Origin: a virus
Length of the DNA: 47,360 nucleotides
Virus record (IMG/VR): IMGVR_UViG_3300050015_000398
Location: 1 to 47,360 of that record
Reading direction: 5' to 3' (one strand)
Position numbers and translations under genes: made by a program. A model generated the notes under the pieces. The model did not search any database. It was not told the origin of the DNA and saw nothing but the letters and a program-made list of their open reading frames with translations. Shown in pieces: positions 37,048 to 42,345 of this stretch; the first letter of the stretch is position 1, and the number at the start of each line of letters is the position of its first letter.

Positions 37048-37947
37048 ATGAATTTTGAAGAATTTAAAGAGGAAATCCTCAAAAGAGCAAAGAAAGCTAA
37101 TGCCTGTACTTCACAGTATAAAAGAGCTGCAGAAACAACTACTATCGATGAATTAATCGAAGTACTCAAAGACAATATCAATTTTGCTAAAGACAATGAC
37201 ATTCTAACTATTGAATTGAGCAAACAGTACGAACGTCCTGAATTATTCGGTATTGGAAAAGGAAATACAGGATTTTTCAACAGCGGATACCGTAACAGCG
37301 GAGACCGTAACAGCGGAGACCTTAACAGCGGATACCGTAACAGCGGAGAACGTAACAGCGGATACCGTAACAGCGGAGAACGTAACAGCGGAGAACGTAA
37401 CAGCGGAGACCTTAACAGCGGATACCGTAACAGCGGAGACCGTAACAGCGGATACCGTAACAGCGGAGACCGTAACAGCGGAGACCTTAACAGCGGAGAC
37501 CGTAACAGCGGAGACCGTAACAGCGGATACCGTAACAGCGGAGACCGTAACAGCGGAGACCGTAACAGCGGAGACCGTAACAGCGGAGACCTTAACAGCG
37601 GCTACCGAAACAGTGGAGTTTTCTGTACCAGAAAACGCGAAGATACAGTTCCATTCTTCAACAAAGAATCTGAAATGACATGGGATGAATGGTACAGTAA
37701 CAAAGCCTATTATATTACAAGAGATTTAAAAATAACTGAGTGGATTGATTGGGATTCAATGACAGATTATGAAAAGAAAGAATATTCAAAAGCTTTTGTA
37801 ACTGGTGGACGTGTGAAAGTTTACAAATACAAACAAGCATGGACCAACCTTTGGGAAACTCTTTCAGACGGAGATAAAGAAATTGTAAAGTCGCTTCCAA
37901 ATTTCGATACTGAAGTATTCCTTGAGATAACAGGAATAAGACTTTAA
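37048..37947 (+). CDS. pentapeptide-like (NSGxR/L) repeat protein
   Basis: A 299-residue protein. The N-terminal 75 residues are helical (EEFKEEILKRAKKANACTSQ). Residues ~78-190 are 22 perfect five-residue units N-S-G-(D/Y/E)-(R/L), close to the right-handed pentapeptide/MPTR helix repeats. A C-terminal ~110-residue domain (TWDEWYSNKAYYITRDLKIT) follows. Pentapeptide proteins may imitate DNA and protect gyrase or inhibit restriction. Here the faces carry both Asp/Glu and Arg, so DNA mimicry is not clear. Confidence 0.75.
   Translation: MNFEEFKEEILKRAKKANACTSQYKRAAETTTIDELIEVLKDNINFAKDNDILTIELSKQYERPELFGIGKGNTGFFNSGYRNSGDRNSGDLNSGYRNSGERNSGYRNSGERNSGERNSGDLNSGYRNSGDRNSGYRNSGDRNSGDLNSGDRNSGDRNSGYRNSGDRNSGDRNSGDRNSGDLNSGYRNSGVFCTRKREDTVPFFNKESEMTWDEWYSNKAYYITRDLKITEWIDWDSMTDYEKKEYSKAFVTGGRVKVYKYKQAWTNLWETLSDGDKEIVKSLPNFDTEVFLEITGIRL
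37279..37617 (+). repeat. 15-bp tandem repeats in the pentapeptide-like gene
   Basis: Twenty-two units of 15 bp start at 37279 (AACAGCGG + TAC/AGAC/AGAA variants + CGT/CTT), with unit 22 starting at 37594, then a partial copy (AACAGTGGA). Because the period is a multiple of three, other frames over this stretch also stay open, but they are shadows. Confidence 0.95.
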
Positions 37948-37955
37948 AATGGTTC

Positions 37956-38045
37956 GGGGTATTAGCTCAGCTGGATAGAGCAATAAGCGCCGGAGTGTTA
38001 TCCCGGTTTGCTGAAAATACGTGGGTTCGATTCCCGTATACTCCA
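37956..38045 (+). tRNA. tRNA-like gene, 90 nt, unusual anticodon arm
   Basis: The acceptor stem GGGGTAT (37956-37962) / ATACTCC (38038-38044) has one G-U and discriminator A. The D arm GCTC...GAGC is canonical, and the T arm GTGGG-TTCGATT-CCCGT is canonical with two G-U pairs. CCA is not fully encoded. Between D and T arms there are about 45 nt instead of ~22-30. One fold puts CCGG / CCGG around GTGTTAT, which would give anticodon GTT (Asn), leaving extra bases on both sides. Another pairs ATAA / TTAT with an 11-nt loop. It may be a degenerate tRNA or a class-II-like variant; the amino acid is uncertain. Confidence 0.55.
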
Positions 38046-38224: not shown

Positions 38225-38350
38225 TAACGTTTCGGCTACCCGCTGTGGCGATTTGCGGGGCACAAATTTTCAAAACTTAGTATAAACTCAAAGCGGGAGC
38301 AACCACTCCAAAACCGCACAATGTCGCCATTGCGGGTGAGGCGTGTGTTA
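38225..38350 (+). repeat. attC-like inverted repeat 1 (126 bp)
   Basis: The left arm 38225-38258 starts TAACGTTTCGGC. The right arm 38314-38350 ends GCGTGTGTTA. Its reverse complement starts TAACACACGCC and then shares ACCCGC, TGGCGA and TGCGG with the left arm in the same order. Ends are TAACG...GTGTTA, the AAC/GTT layout of attC. Arms are imperfect with unpaired bases, and the ~55-bp centre is variable. The stop of the preceding gene is directly before it. Confidence 0.6.
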
Positions 38351-38399
38351 CCTGCTGGGCTTTCTTTCTTAATCAACTAATTTTAAACAAAAGACAAAA

Positions 38400-38807
38400 A
38401 TGAACAGAGAAATTATTTTTAGAGCGCAACGACTTGGAACGAAAGAATGGTTGCAAGGAGATTTGATTAAAATGTCAAAAATTGACCCATTTACCTATAT
38501 AGCCATAGGAATTGGGTATAAAATTGACAACCCAGAACTTGGTAAATCAATTAAAGTTCTTCCTGGTACAGTTGGACAATTTACAGGGCTAACCGACAAA
38601 AATGGAACTAAAATTTTTGAAGGTGATATAATTAAAGTTGATATTTTTACAAAACCGTATTTTATTTCATTTGGAAAATCTGAAAAATGGGGAGCTTGTT
38701 TTTGTGTTCAAAGTAAAAATTCAATTATATTTTTTACGAAAAACTGGGCTGAAACTTCTGAGATAATTGGGAATATCCACGACAACCCCGAACTGCTCAT
38801 TTTTTAG
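38400..38807 (+). CDS. YopX family protein
   Basis: A 135-residue protein with the YopX pattern: IIFRAQRLGTKEWLQGDLI at the start, VGQFTGLTDKNGTKIFEGDI in the middle and IIGNIHDNPELL at the end. These small proteins are common in phages of Bacteroidetes and Firmicutes; function unknown. It lies between two attC-like repeats, with TAG 38805-38807 9 bp before the second. That is the usual position of a cassette gene relative to its attC. Confidence 0.85.
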   Translation: MNREIIFRAQRLGTKEWLQGDLIKMSKIDPFTYIAIGIGYKIDNPELGKSIKVLPGTVGQFTGLTDKNGTKIFEGDIIKVDIFTKPYFISFGKSEKWGACFCVQSKNSIIFFTKNWAETSEIIGNIHDNPELLIF

Positions 38808-38816
38808 CCTTGCAGG

Positions 38817-38887
38817 TAACGACCGAGGCTATGATTTTGCCTCTTTGTTTCAAATAGACGTTGTGGCAAAAACATAGGCTAGTGTTA
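38817..38887 (+). repeat. attC-like inverted repeat 2 (71 bp)
   Basis: It begins TAACGACCGAGGCTATG (38817-38833) with TTTTGCC at 38835-38841, and ends GGCAAAAACATAGGCT-AGTGTTA. GCTATG / CATAGGC and TTTTGCC / GGCAAAA pair across a ~25-bp centre. Extra bases on the left arm remain unpaired, as in attC extrahelical bases. Termini TAACG / GTGTTA are the same as in repeats 1 and 3. Confidence 0.65.
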
Positions 38888-38959
38888 TGTACTGTTTTTT
38901 CTTTCTTTTCTTAATGAAAGTTAAACTTTCTTAATTGGTTGAAAATACTTTGTTTTTTG

Positions 38960-38991
38960 TTTGCAGAAACCAAAATAACACCGTATCTTTG
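38960..38991 (+). promoter_or_regulatory. promoter TTTG-N20-TATCTTTG
   Basis: TTTG at 38960-38963 and TATCTTTG at 38984-38991 with a 20-bp spacer are a full Bacteroidetes promoter. It lies in the 5' part of the second cassette, so the cassette may carry its own promoter. Confidence 0.75.
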
Positions 38992-39035
38992 TATCAACAA
39001 AAACAAATAATACAAACAATTTAAAACTTACAATC

Positions 39036-39224
39036 ATGAACACAACTACAGTATTATCAGAACTTACAACTGGAACTAAATTTTTCATGACAAACAATCC
39101 AGAAAAAGGAAATTATGTATTTGACCGTATTTACAAAGGATTTTGCGAATTTAAAGGAGAAAACGGTTCAATTTGCAAAACACCAGAACGCACAGGCTTG
39201 ATCGTTAAAGTAACAATTTTGTAA
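39036..39224 (+). CDS. small cassette protein, 62 aa
   Basis: Starts MNTTTVLSELTTGTKFFMTN and ends RTGLIVKVTIL. It is a compact beta-rich protein with two cysteines. It is downstream of a strong promoter and its stop overlaps the next start by one base (TAATG). No known family recognised. Confidence 0.65.
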   Translation: MNTTTVLSELTTGTKFFMTNNPEKGNYVFDRIYKGFCEFKGENGSICKTPERTGLIVKVTIL

Positions 39225-39391
39225 TGAAAAAAGAAAATCGGGGAGGCGTAAGAACCTCCCTAACTAAAAAAATAGGCAGACCAACAAAAGAGCCTACAAG
39301 GGTTTTAAATTTTCGTGTTCCTATCAAAGAATACGACCGTTTAAAACCTCTTGTCGGTGAATACTTGGCATCTTTGTTAAATGGGGCATAA
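39224..39391 (+). CDS. ribbon-helix-helix-like small protein, 55 aa
   Basis: ATG at 39224-39226 overlaps the previous stop; TAA at 39389-39391 is at the same time the first bases of attC-like repeat 3. The product starts MKKENRGGVRTSLTKKIGRP, then EPTRVLNFRVPIKEYDRLKP. The basic N-terminus followed by a strand (RVLNFRVPIKEY) and helices suggests a ribbon-helix-helix DNA-binding or antitoxin-type protein. The call is tentative. Confidence 0.6.
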   Translation: MKKENRGGVRTSLTKKIGRPTKEPTRVLNFRVPIKEYDRLKPLVGEYLASLLNGA

Positions 39392-39512
39392 CGTTGGTGG
39401 TATGAAATCGAAGCGGAATGCGAGCTACACCATTTTCCCGATGCAGGGAAATTGGTACGGGATACAAAGCTTCGATAACCACCTAAACCGCTTTGTTTTA
39501 TACCACGTGTTA
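39389..39512 (+). repeat. attC-like inverted repeat 3 (124 bp)
   Basis: The left arm TAACGTTGGTGGTATGAAA... (39389-39416, ending AAGCGG) pairs with the right arm CCGCTTTG...ATACCACGTGTTA (39488-39512). The right arm is 3 nt shorter. The centre carries an extra hairpin: TTTCCC / GGGAAA around GATGCA near 39434-39451. Termini TAACG / GTGTTA match repeats 1 and 2. Confidence 0.65.
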
Positions 39513-39553
39513 GCAAATCGGCTTTTATTGTAAACAATTTAATACAAATAATT

Positions 39554-39811
39554 ATGAATCATTTACTTTCAATTAGAACAAACATTCTTTACTCAAAGGA
39601 AAAAAGTAAAGACGGTGAAGAAACTTACAAGAGGTTTCACGAACTTATATTTTTAGTTGATAAACCTCAATACTTATCAACTAATGAAGGTGATATTGTC
39701 AGGCAGCGAACAATTGAAGAACTTCGATTTAATGTTTCGGATGATGCCTTTGATTTAATGATTAAACACCTTTTAAAATTAAAAGACATTGACGAATCGG
39801 AGATGGTTTAA
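39554..39811 (+). CDS. small cassette protein, 85 aa
   Basis: Starts MNHLLSIRTNILYSKEKSKD. The middle is EETYKRFHELIFLVDKPQYL and the end is FDLMIKHLLKLKDIDESEMV. It is an acidic alpha/beta protein without membrane segments. It sits after repeat 3 and before a half repeat (TAAC at 39821), 9 bp after its stop. No family recognised. Confidence 0.6.
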   Translation: MNHLLSIRTNILYSKEKSKDGEETYKRFHELIFLVDKPQYLSTNEGDIVRQRTIEELRFNVSDDAFDLMIKHLLKLKDIDESEMV

Positions 39812-39820
39812 GCTGTTTGC

Positions 39821-39840
39821 TAACATCATCCTATACGCAC
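39821..39840 (+). repeat. possible half attC-like site, array boundary
   Basis: TAACATCATCC starts 9 bp after the stop of the preceding cassette gene, the same spacing as the complete repeat 2 (9 bp). No matching right arm or GTGTTA follows before the replication genes begin (39858). It may mark a deletion boundary of the array. Weak evidence on its own. Confidence 0.3.
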
Positions 39841-39857: not shown

Positions 39858-39977
39858 ATGAATTACAACGAGTTAAGAGATAAATTATTTGAAAATTACG
39901 AAAGTGGAGCAATCACCGACGAACTTGCAATAAAATATTTTTGTGGCATCTGTTGGAATAAAATCAAAAAAATATGA
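39858..39977 (+). CDS. small hypothetical protein, 39 aa
   Basis: The ATG at 39858 (MNYNELRDKLFENYESGAIT) is chosen over upstream in-frame starts lying in repeat-like DNA. It is helical, with two cysteines in FCGICWNKIKK. The stop overlaps the initiator start (ATGA). No family recognised. Confidence 0.5.
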   Translation: MNYNELRDKLFENYESGAITDELAIKYFCGICWNKIKKI

Positions 39978-40777
39978 AAGATAACAAGCTAAACAGTTAT
40001 GATCTGAGTCGTCAATTTTTCGACTGGTGTTTTGAAAATCCAGAGAAAGTAACCCCGAATCACATCGCGCTTTATTTTTTTTCAATTGAGCATTGTAACC
40101 GACTCGGATGGAAGGAAAAATTCGGATTCCCAATGGAGATGGCAAAGGACGCGATCGGAATTAAAAACTACCGGACATATTCAAAAGCATTCAATGATTT
40201 AATCGAATGGGGATTCATTAAACTGGTTCAAAAATCGAAAAATCAATATTCGGCGAACATTATTGCTATTGTAAAAAATACAAAAGCAAATACAAAAGCA
40301 TTCGACAAAGCACTGCAAAAGCACAGTCAAAAGCACAGTCAAAAGCACAGTCAAAAGCAAGTCCACGGCATTGTAGGTATAAATAAACAATATAACAATA
40401 CAATAAACAAGGAACAAGAGCAGAAAAAAAACACTCCCGAAATTCCTAAAGTTTTTTTATTAGAAATTTCAGAGATTGAAGACTTCCTTCTTAGCGAACA
40501 AATATGGATGGAACAAACCGTCTGCATGCGGCAGAAATTGAAACCAGATCAAGCCAAAATATCAATCCACCAATTTGTCGAAACACTTAAAGACCGTGCT
40601 GAAGAAACAAAAACCACCACCGACGCAAAGCAACATTTTATCAACTGGCTAAAAAAACAAAAAATACAAGATGGAACAAATAAAAAACCAGGTGCTTCGT
40701 TTGCGGAACGAAATGATCCAAACTCCAGTCAGTTCTGCGGATTACGAACCAAACGCGAAATCAAAAGCGCTATTTAA
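39974..40777 (+). CDS. replication initiator / DnaD-like (DUF7833-type) protein
   Basis: A 267-residue protein. The N-terminal ~90 residues form a winged-helix-like domain (LSRQFFDWCFENPEKVTPNH; YRTYSKAFNDLIEWGFIKLV). A Lys/Gln/His linker with KHSQ repeated three times precedes the C-terminal domain, EQIWMEQTVCMRQKLKPDQA...HFINWLKKQK, typical of the DUF7833 type in Bacteroidetes phages. It overlaps the helicase loader by 107 bp. It is likely the replisome organiser that binds the phage origin, but no origin repeats were found nearby. Confidence 0.75.
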   Translation: MKDNKLNSYDLSRQFFDWCFENPEKVTPNHIALYFFSIEHCNRLGWKEKFGFPMEMAKDAIGIKNYRTYSKAFNDLIEWGFIKLVQKSKNQYSANIIAIVKNTKANTKAFDKALQKHSQKHSQKHSQKQVHGIVGINKQYNNTINKEQEQKKNTPEIPKVFLLEISEIEDFLLSEQIWMEQTVCMRQKLKPDQAKISIHQFVETLKDRAEETKTTTDAKQHFINWLKKQKIQDGTNKKPGASFAERNDPNSSQFCGLRTKREIKSAI

Positions 40778-41363: not shown

Positions 41364-41411
41364 ATGAAACAATTTAAAGGAAAAGCGATTTACAATGGGA
41401 AAACTTATTGA
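41364..41411 (+). pseudogene. N-terminal remnant of a radical SAM gene
   Basis: The frame reads MKQFKGKAIYN and then GKTY before a stop. The first 11 residues match the usual start of the radical SAM protein that follows at 41527 (its own start is NYAIYQPKNKAAEYAEW). The break falls exactly where the endonuclease-like remnant (41395) begins, so it looks like an insertion site scar. Confidence 0.55.
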
Positions 41412-41505
41412 TATAACAGGAAAACGATTTGGACGGAATGAGAACCGGCATAACATTGTCAATAAGTCTACACATGGACTTTCTAAACTTCCTATTCAAA
41501 AATAG
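41395..41505 (+). pseudogene. internally deleted AP2/HNH-type endonuclease remnant
   Basis: MGKLIDITGKRFGR is the start of AP2/HNH-type mobile endonucleases, but the expected zinc and nuclease parts are missing. After 14 residues the text changes to NENRHNIVNKSTHGLSKLPI and stops (TAG 41503-41505). THGLSK-PI is a motif that in full-length relatives lies ~50 or more residues further on. So most of the gene has been lost in frame. Confidence 0.55.
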
Positions 41506-41526
41506 TAAACAACAAAACTTGGCAAA

Positions 41527-42345
41527 ATGAGTAATTACGCAATATATCAACCAAAAAATAAAGCCGCTGAATATGCCGAATGGGCTTGTAATTTTTATGT
41601 TGGCTGTAGTAACAATTGTTCTTATTGTTACCTTAAAAAAGGTATCGGTGCAAAGGTTTTAGGAGGAAATGTACCAACACTTAAGAAGTGTTTCAAAGAT
41701 GAATCACATGCTTTAGAGGTATTTGAAAAGGAATTGAAAGCAAATTTACCTGAATTACAAAAACATGGTTTATTCTTTAGTTTTACAACTGATCCGTGTT
41801 TGCGTAAAACATTTGATTTGACAATGCAAGCAATGAGTATTTGTTTAAAGAATAACGTTCCAGTTACAATACTAACCAAAGTGTCGGTATGGGTTGATTT
41901 TTTTCTGATTAATATTAGTTTTTCTAACAATAGTTTTTTTGTTCCTAATTGGGAAAGTTTGATATTATTTATGTTTACCCTCACAGGCCGGGATGATTTA
42001 GAACCTAACGCCTCAACCAATCAGGAGCGAATCGAAGCAATGAAGAAACTGCATGCTGCAGGCTTTAAGACAGGTGCAAGTATCGAACCTATTGTTGAAT
42101 TAGTTAATAGTTTTCAAATGATTTGTGAGACCAATTGCATTTGTGACATATATAAAATAGGGATTGAATCAGGGAAAAAGTATGAGAAATCAGAATTGAG
42201 AAAATTTGTCTATAATGTAATTAGACAAAATGAGTTTTCGGGATCAAAAATTTATTATAAGGATTCTCTTTTAAAACAAGTCGGAATAACTCGTGAAGAT
42301 TTACCTGAAAATTGCGTCACCCGGGATTATAATTTATTCAAATAA
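41527..42345 (+). CDS. radical SAM protein
   Basis: A 272-residue protein. The iron-sulfur motif GCSNNCSYCY (Cys27, 31, 34: CxxxCxxC) follows EYAEWACNFYV. FSFTTDPC, PVTILTK, FTLTGRDDLEPNASTNQERI and TGASIEPIVE are typical of the SPL-like radical SAM group found in Bacteroidetes phages. The substrate is unknown; a nucleotide or DNA modification role is possible. Its N-terminus appears re-created downstream of an endonuclease scar. Confidence 0.85.
   Translation: MSNYAIYQPKNKAAEYAEWACNFYVGCSNNCSYCYLKKGIGAKVLGGNVPTLKKCFKDESHALEVFEKELKANLPELQKHGLFFSFTTDPCLRKTFDLTMQAMSICLKNNVPVTILTKVSVWVDFFLINISFSNNSFFVPNWESLILFMFTLTGRDDLEPNASTNQERIEAMKKLHAAGFKTGASIEPIVELVNSFQMICETNCICDIYKIGIESGKKYEKSELRKFVYNVIRQNEFSGSKIYYKDSLLKQVGITREDLPENCVTRDYNLFK

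Follow-up and report, generated by a model that had tools for sequence, protein, structure and literature searches.

The closest described systems to the locus studied here are the IntI integrons, in which small-gene cassettes stand in tandem, the attC sites are hairpins with AAC and GTT at their ends, and attI adjoins the gene of a tyrosine recombinase, with the array on the upstream side of that gene. IntI is defined by an additional domain (PMC9668308). Its I2 helix docks the extrahelical bases of attC and is regarded as the innovation that allowed single-strand recombination; intermediate forms are said to be missing (PMC7790495). An R-arm pairing of 9-11 nt between cassette ends is known (PMC2727003), and complete integrons have rarely been reported in Bacteroidetes (PMC9024848). 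AttC-like arrays without an integrase (CALINs) were reported in phage genomes by Qi et al. 2023, including Polaribacter phage P12002L, and 5/6 tested sites recombined with IntI1 (PMC9892861).

We analyzed one virus record of 47,360 bases, called the window throughout. As in phage CALINs, it contains an attC-like array and no integrase; as in IntI integrons, small-gene cassettes follow each other in tandem, the hairpin sites have AAC/GTT ends, and each cassette start is complementary to its own end. The locus looks like an integrase-less member of an unrecognised, phage-borne integron type. Most likely, it belongs to an integron-like system confined to Bacteroidota phages and forms an array of three cassettes, with the recombinase encoded in relatives and missing here. 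Counted with each site upstream of its gene, the array resolves without remainder into three cassettes with a site each and a half site at the end (Table 1). In the open-access papers that we searched, no description of a non-IntI phage integron was found.

Table 1. Features of the putative cassette array and its right-hand flank in the window
Feature	Position	Strand	Remarks
attC-like hairpin site 1	38225..38350	+	126 nt; upstream of YopX gene
YopX-family gene, 135 aa	38400..38807	+	cassette 1 cargo; Pfam PF09643, E 6e-18
attC-like hairpin site 2	38817..38887	+	71 nt; scan score 11
62-aa gene	39036..39224	+	cassette 2 cargo; ORF
55-aa gene	39224..39391	+	cassette 2 cargo; ORF; stop codon overlaps site 3
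attC-like hairpin site 3	39389..39512	+	124 nt; scan score 12
85-aa gene	39554..39811	+	cassette 3 cargo
Half site and attI-like flank (TTTGCTAACATCATCCTATACGCAC)	39816..39840	+	array end; TAAC at 39821-39824
DnaD-like replisome organiser gene	39974..40777	+	PHROG replisome organiser; backbone right of array

The host of this virus is probably a flavobacterium-like Bacteroidota, since the terminase is nearest to those of vB_RanS_PJN03, Croceibacter P2559Y, and Cellulophaga phi12:1. No near-identical phage record was found for the right third of the window. The array is flanked by a tRNA-like feature on one side and the DnaD-like gene on the other. The tRNA-like feature, left of the array (37956-38045), scored 40 bits with the Rfam tRNA model –the sole Rfam match in the window– and ARAGORN makes no call there. 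Besides, positions 37048-37947 encode a pentapeptide-repeat protein, and this stretch contains some 23 near-identical repeats of 15 bases. In viral contig L002 (9848-10669), a gene with a CxxxCxxC motif that looks radical-SAM-like by eye belongs to the cassette cargo; in the window (41364-42345) it lies outside the array, and the opening codons (MKQFKGKAIYNG, near position 41364) seem separated from the remainder.

At the site level, a mechanical scan of the 47,360 bases for TAAC-hairpin-GTTA elements of 50-160 nt with a stem score of at least 8 retrieved the three sites and no others. First-order Markov shuffles gave 0.075 sites per window at a score of at least 9.5, and three sites in 0/200. 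Judged by their sequence, the three repeats would be the recombination sites of a mobile cassette array. This is in line with the earlier note, which had proposed an attC-like cassette array inside a phage: its coordinates for the repeats and their TAACG starts and GTGTTA ends are exact, the TAAC half site is present at the array end, no integron integrase was found in the window, and the array itself is supported by the scan, the shuffles, a covariance model, and the pairing of cassette ends. It had also remarked that the GTTRRRY consensus is not fully matched, and the core sites (GTTACCT, GTTATGT, and GTTAGCA) indeed depart from GTTRRRY / RYYYAAC, unlike those of IntI integrons. The site sequences are not conserved, since a 19-base piece of site 1 had no match in viral contigs, and in genome contigs it matched unrelated sequence alone, with no hairpin site.

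For the cassettes, each would consist of a hairpin site and one or two genes. The cargo is the YopX gene and three small genes without known family. The strongest signal of the array, absent from the earlier note, is that each cassette start is complementary to its own end, as for GTTACCTGCTGGGCT and AGCCTTGCAGGTAAC in cassette 1. Against a background of random GTTA/TAAC pairs within the window, 9/10 informative positions matched for the start/end pair of cassette 1 (GTTACCTGC/GCAGGTAAC, p = 8e-5), 6/10 for cassette 2 (GTTATG/CATAAC, p = 0.026), and 7/10 for cassette 3 (GTTAGCAAA/TTTGCTAAC, p = 0.006), where the end is the terminal half site. The variable part of this complementarity differs between the window cassettes. 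Across 51 phage cassettes, the first 15 nt against the own last 15 nt gave 355 complementary matches vs. 181 ± 11 when permuted. The pairing covers about 10 nt, is interrupted by a near-constant mismatch at position 11 (where identity is 8%, against a background of 11%), continues over positions 12-15, and then ends. The cassette-end complementarity of integrons is thus found in a version longer by the position-11 mismatch and four pairs, whereas in IntI-linked cassettes it covers 10-11 nt and then fades.

The 85-aa gene has relatives in viral contigs L031 (91%), L032 (86%), and L033 (58%), and a change at one end of its cassette is compensated at the other: the window has GTTAGCAAA..TTTGCTAAC, and L032 has GTTAGCAAC..GTTGCTAAC. 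Its place also differs, being farthest from the integrase in L032 and adjoining the attI-like site in the window. Exact cassette boundaries in related phages, which the earlier note had pointed to as a check, were observed for this cassette: DNA homology between the window and L174 stops exactly at TAAC (window 39824, L174 4551). For the 62-aa gene, a relative in L034 (82%) has the gene in common and not the cassette. Within cassette 2, ahead of the 62-aa gene, positions 38960-38991 read TTTG-N20-TATCTTTG, which by eye is a Bacteroidota-type promoter that this cassette may bring along. Viral contigs L044, L078 (387-801), and L101 (1641-3925) hold YopX-type genes together with sites of the same type, so such genes may be common as cargo; the records of these contigs contain no clade integrase.

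Hairpins between small genes could also be REP-like palindromes or intrinsic terminators with no tie to recombination, and T-rich stretches do follow sites 1 and 2. We consider this very improbable: neither element predicts start/end complementarity that is specific to each cassette, exact boundaries, the presence of an attI motif, or the concentration of sites upstream of a single integrase clade.

The last two points come from relatives, which we retrieved by scanning viral contigs with the L032 protein and with an alignment. In L032 –the same contig as L174– the order is array, half site, 277-aa tyrosine recombinase, and a homologue of the window DnaD-like gene. L174 is syntenic with the window, but the integrase lies between attI and the DnaD-like gene, whose homologue follows it with 73.5% DNA identity; the boundaries of the integrase module are exact. 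The recombinase clade was carried by 21 viral contigs at 52-100% identity, all uncultivated and including a few near-copies (pairs L175/L176 and L166/L174). We found 47 sites in 90 kb upstream of the clade integrase vs. 0 in 111 kb downstream, and at least one site in 17/18 contigs with more than 500 bases upstream of it; the exception, L187, has the attI motif alone.

As in IntI integrons, an attI motif stands beside the integrase gene in the relatives. The attI-type site of the phage system would be TAAC-N-TATATGTA, and in most relatives TAAC-N3-6-TATnTGTA is located about 40 nt ahead of the integrase start codon. The right-hand half site of the window is best described as a putative attI-like site: its flank resembles the TAAC-N-TATnTGTA of the relatives, although the match is loose and no integrase adjoins it. 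Beyond these contigs, the best relative in 395 Bacteroidota genomes scored 255 bits vs. 510-565 inside the clade, and the best match among 50,697 phage records was 34% identical.

At the protein level, the phage recombinase (about 277 aa) is close to XerA and lacks the integron-specific I2 insert that IntI has. It scored 161 bits in two pieces against TIGR02249 (cut-off 265) and 182 bits against the XerA model (cut-off 220). The insert is missing from the relatives' integrase by HMM, by alignment, and by an AlphaFold model (mean pLDDT 83, pTM 0.59), which presents no helix at the I2 place. Its nearest folds are XerA (5hxy) and IntI4 (2a3v). Support in the tree was 100/100 for each of the phage, IntI, and Xer clades. 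At 93/84, the branching among the phage clade, IntI, and one XerA-like row leaves more than one candidate for the sister group of the phage integrase. By HMM, sequence, and fold, the nearest recombinases are XerA-like (archaeal XerA, PDB 5hxy). However, XerA is known as a dif-type chromosome resolvase, whereas the phage clade goes together with arrays of cassettes that have hairpin sites.

The closest cellular relatives are chromosomal XerA-like recombinases without the IntI insert (Bacteroidota genomes L209, L210, and L212). One strong attC-like hairpin was observed within about 2 kb of each (L209 8486-8610, L210 11841-11964, and L212 11782-11906, on the reverse complement of each locus), and for the chromosomal XerA-like recombinases nearest to the phage clade, the surrounding DNA out to about 10 kb contained no more than one strong site. 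Recombinase and hairpin might be a cellular version of the phage system, with support too weak for us to claim it. A likeness also exists with pdif modules, small gene modules moved by Xer-type recombinases; their sites are short, double-stranded, and dif-like, unlike the 50-130-nt hairpins of the phage system.

The earlier note had described the array as CALIN-like. If this were an ordinary CALIN, the phage would have captured attC cassettes from the IntI integron of a host, and the host IntI would move them in trans. In favour of this, IntI was above the NCBIfam cut-off in 105/395 sampled Bacteroidota genomes (SusD matches supported the Bacteroidota assignment in 16/24 checked), phage CALINs with IntI1-active attC are known (PMC9892861), and the phage sites have the AAC/GTT ends and own-end complementarity of IntI sites. 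Still, we consider this reading unlikely, on the comparison of the two site types. Scanning twenty IntI regions, we counted 2.5 extrahelical bases per site in the IntI-linked stems, with almost all of them confined to one arm (0.05/2.50), and 0/40 sites were free of them. The phage stems have 0.36/0.38 bulged bases per site on the two arms and none in 17/42. Thus, the extrahelical bases on one side that had been read into the window repeats are not a consistent feature of the phage site type, which lacks the conserved extrahelical bases of IntI sites. Moreover, arrays of this type occur with an integrase clade other than IntI.

Two covariance models bear on the same point. R1 was built from sites linked to the phage integrase (the window was excluded, but a phage related to it was among those used for training) and matched site 1 with 43.4 bits (E 3e-7; next best in the window 15) and site 3 with 34.4 bits (E 2e-5). 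It missed the short site 2 (8.9 bits); the loop of R1 is longer. R2, built from 28 IntI-linked Bacteroidota attC, found nothing significant in the window: its best score was 10 bits, sites 1 and 2 reached 7.6-7.9, and site 3 was unlisted. Covariance search, a kind of check that the earlier note had named, therefore supported sites 1 and 3 with the phage model, left site 2 without a significant match to either model, and, with the IntI-type model built here, spoke against the IntI type. Elsewhere, R1 matched one IntI-linked site in seven IntI loci, and R2 matched 37 sites in IntI loci vs. none in eight phage loci; default filters passed over the L002 sites in the covariance search. R1 and R2 thus separate two site types. 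While the phage CALINs of PMC9892861 were found by IntI-type attC models, the window sites are missed by the IntI-type model built here and appear to belong to a system with its own integrase. The same scan on the known CALIN phage P12002L found no TAACG..GTTA array of the window type. Taken together, integrase linkage, end pairing, exact boundaries, and the failure of R2 on the window disfavour the terminator, REP, and ordinary CALIN readings. As a separate observation, 105/395 genomes with IntI is far above the few complete integrons in PMC9024848.

Regarding polarity, each site had been assigned in the earlier note to the gene before it. We dropped this assignment: site 1 follows no clear gene, the relatives' sites precede and often start their own gene, L032 has integrase and attI at the 3' end of the genes, and the spacer lengths fit a reversed polarity. 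Along the gene direction, phage sites start with TAACG and have spacers of 5 + 2. IntI arrays have spacers of 6 + 2 in the orientation with an AACG start. That orientation goes against the canonical cassette direction, since the IntI array leads away from intI the other way. As the phage spacers fit it, and attI and integrase lie on the 3' side of the cassette genes in the relatives, the phage genes run opposite to the canonical direction of IntI cassettes, each with its site upstream. Unlike IntI sites, the phage sites often encode protein N-termini: an in-site ATG opens a frame of at least 40 codons beyond the site in 20/42 phage sites vs. 3/42 in the antisense control. The window genes start outside their sites.

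The two strands of the phage sites also differ, in a way that IntI integrons do not share. When the gene-sense strand is folded, most mismatches in the stem take the form of G.T wobbles (53 vs. 7), and this strand folds more stably in 43/45 phage sites, whereas IntI-linked sites have no strand bias (22/45). The earlier note had proposed folding both strands to see whether the bottom one forms a longer stem; at sites 1 and 2 of the window, the sense strand folds better (-24.1 vs. -20.5 and -13.0 vs. -8.5 kcal/mol).

From the features read in the sequences –array, boundaries, end complementarity, strand asymmetry, integrase linkage, and missing insert– we infer single-strand recombination with a crossover within TAAC. 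The genes are directed towards the attI-like site and the integrase, and each site is 5' of its gene; in roughly half of the relatives it also contributes the start codon and the opening residues. In the proposed mechanism, the gene-sense strand, single-stranded during replication or DNA entry, would fold into the hairpin, more stable than its antisense counterpart because imperfect pairs are G.T wobbles on this strand and C.A mismatches on the other. The recombinase would cut this strand within TAAC and join the hairpin either to double-stranded attI, giving insertion, or to another site, giving excision. Replication would then resolve the product, as established for IntI integrons.

Since the window record contains no integrase of the clade in cis (it may be incomplete), either another phage would supply the integrase in trans or the array would by now be frozen. 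A frozen array would be a relic, immobile since integrase loss, with its cassettes now ordinary phage genes. The clade integrase was likewise not found in the array-bearing L002, L031, L044, and L101 records, which may be fragments, and L174 has one at the syntenic place, which fits such a loss. However, the site stems and cassette-end pairing of the window are intact, and arrays without integrase are known from several records, in keeping with supply in trans. We regard the relic as possible, with the balance leaning against it; it concerns present activity and not origin.

Finally, we propose, with confidence a little short of even, that the recombinase of this phage system never had the I2 helix and recombines single-stranded hairpins. 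The system would then be either a survivor from a stage of integron evolution before I2 or a separate invention; G.T wobbles would take the place of extrahelical bases in strand choice, and the N-termini of cassette proteins would be encoded by the sites. If true, hairpin cassette arrays with an integrase without I2 and no conserved extrahelical bases would represent an intermediate or a second solution. Phages would then run their own cassette-exchange system, trading early-region genes with exact boundaries, and this system would be overlooked by searches requiring IntI.
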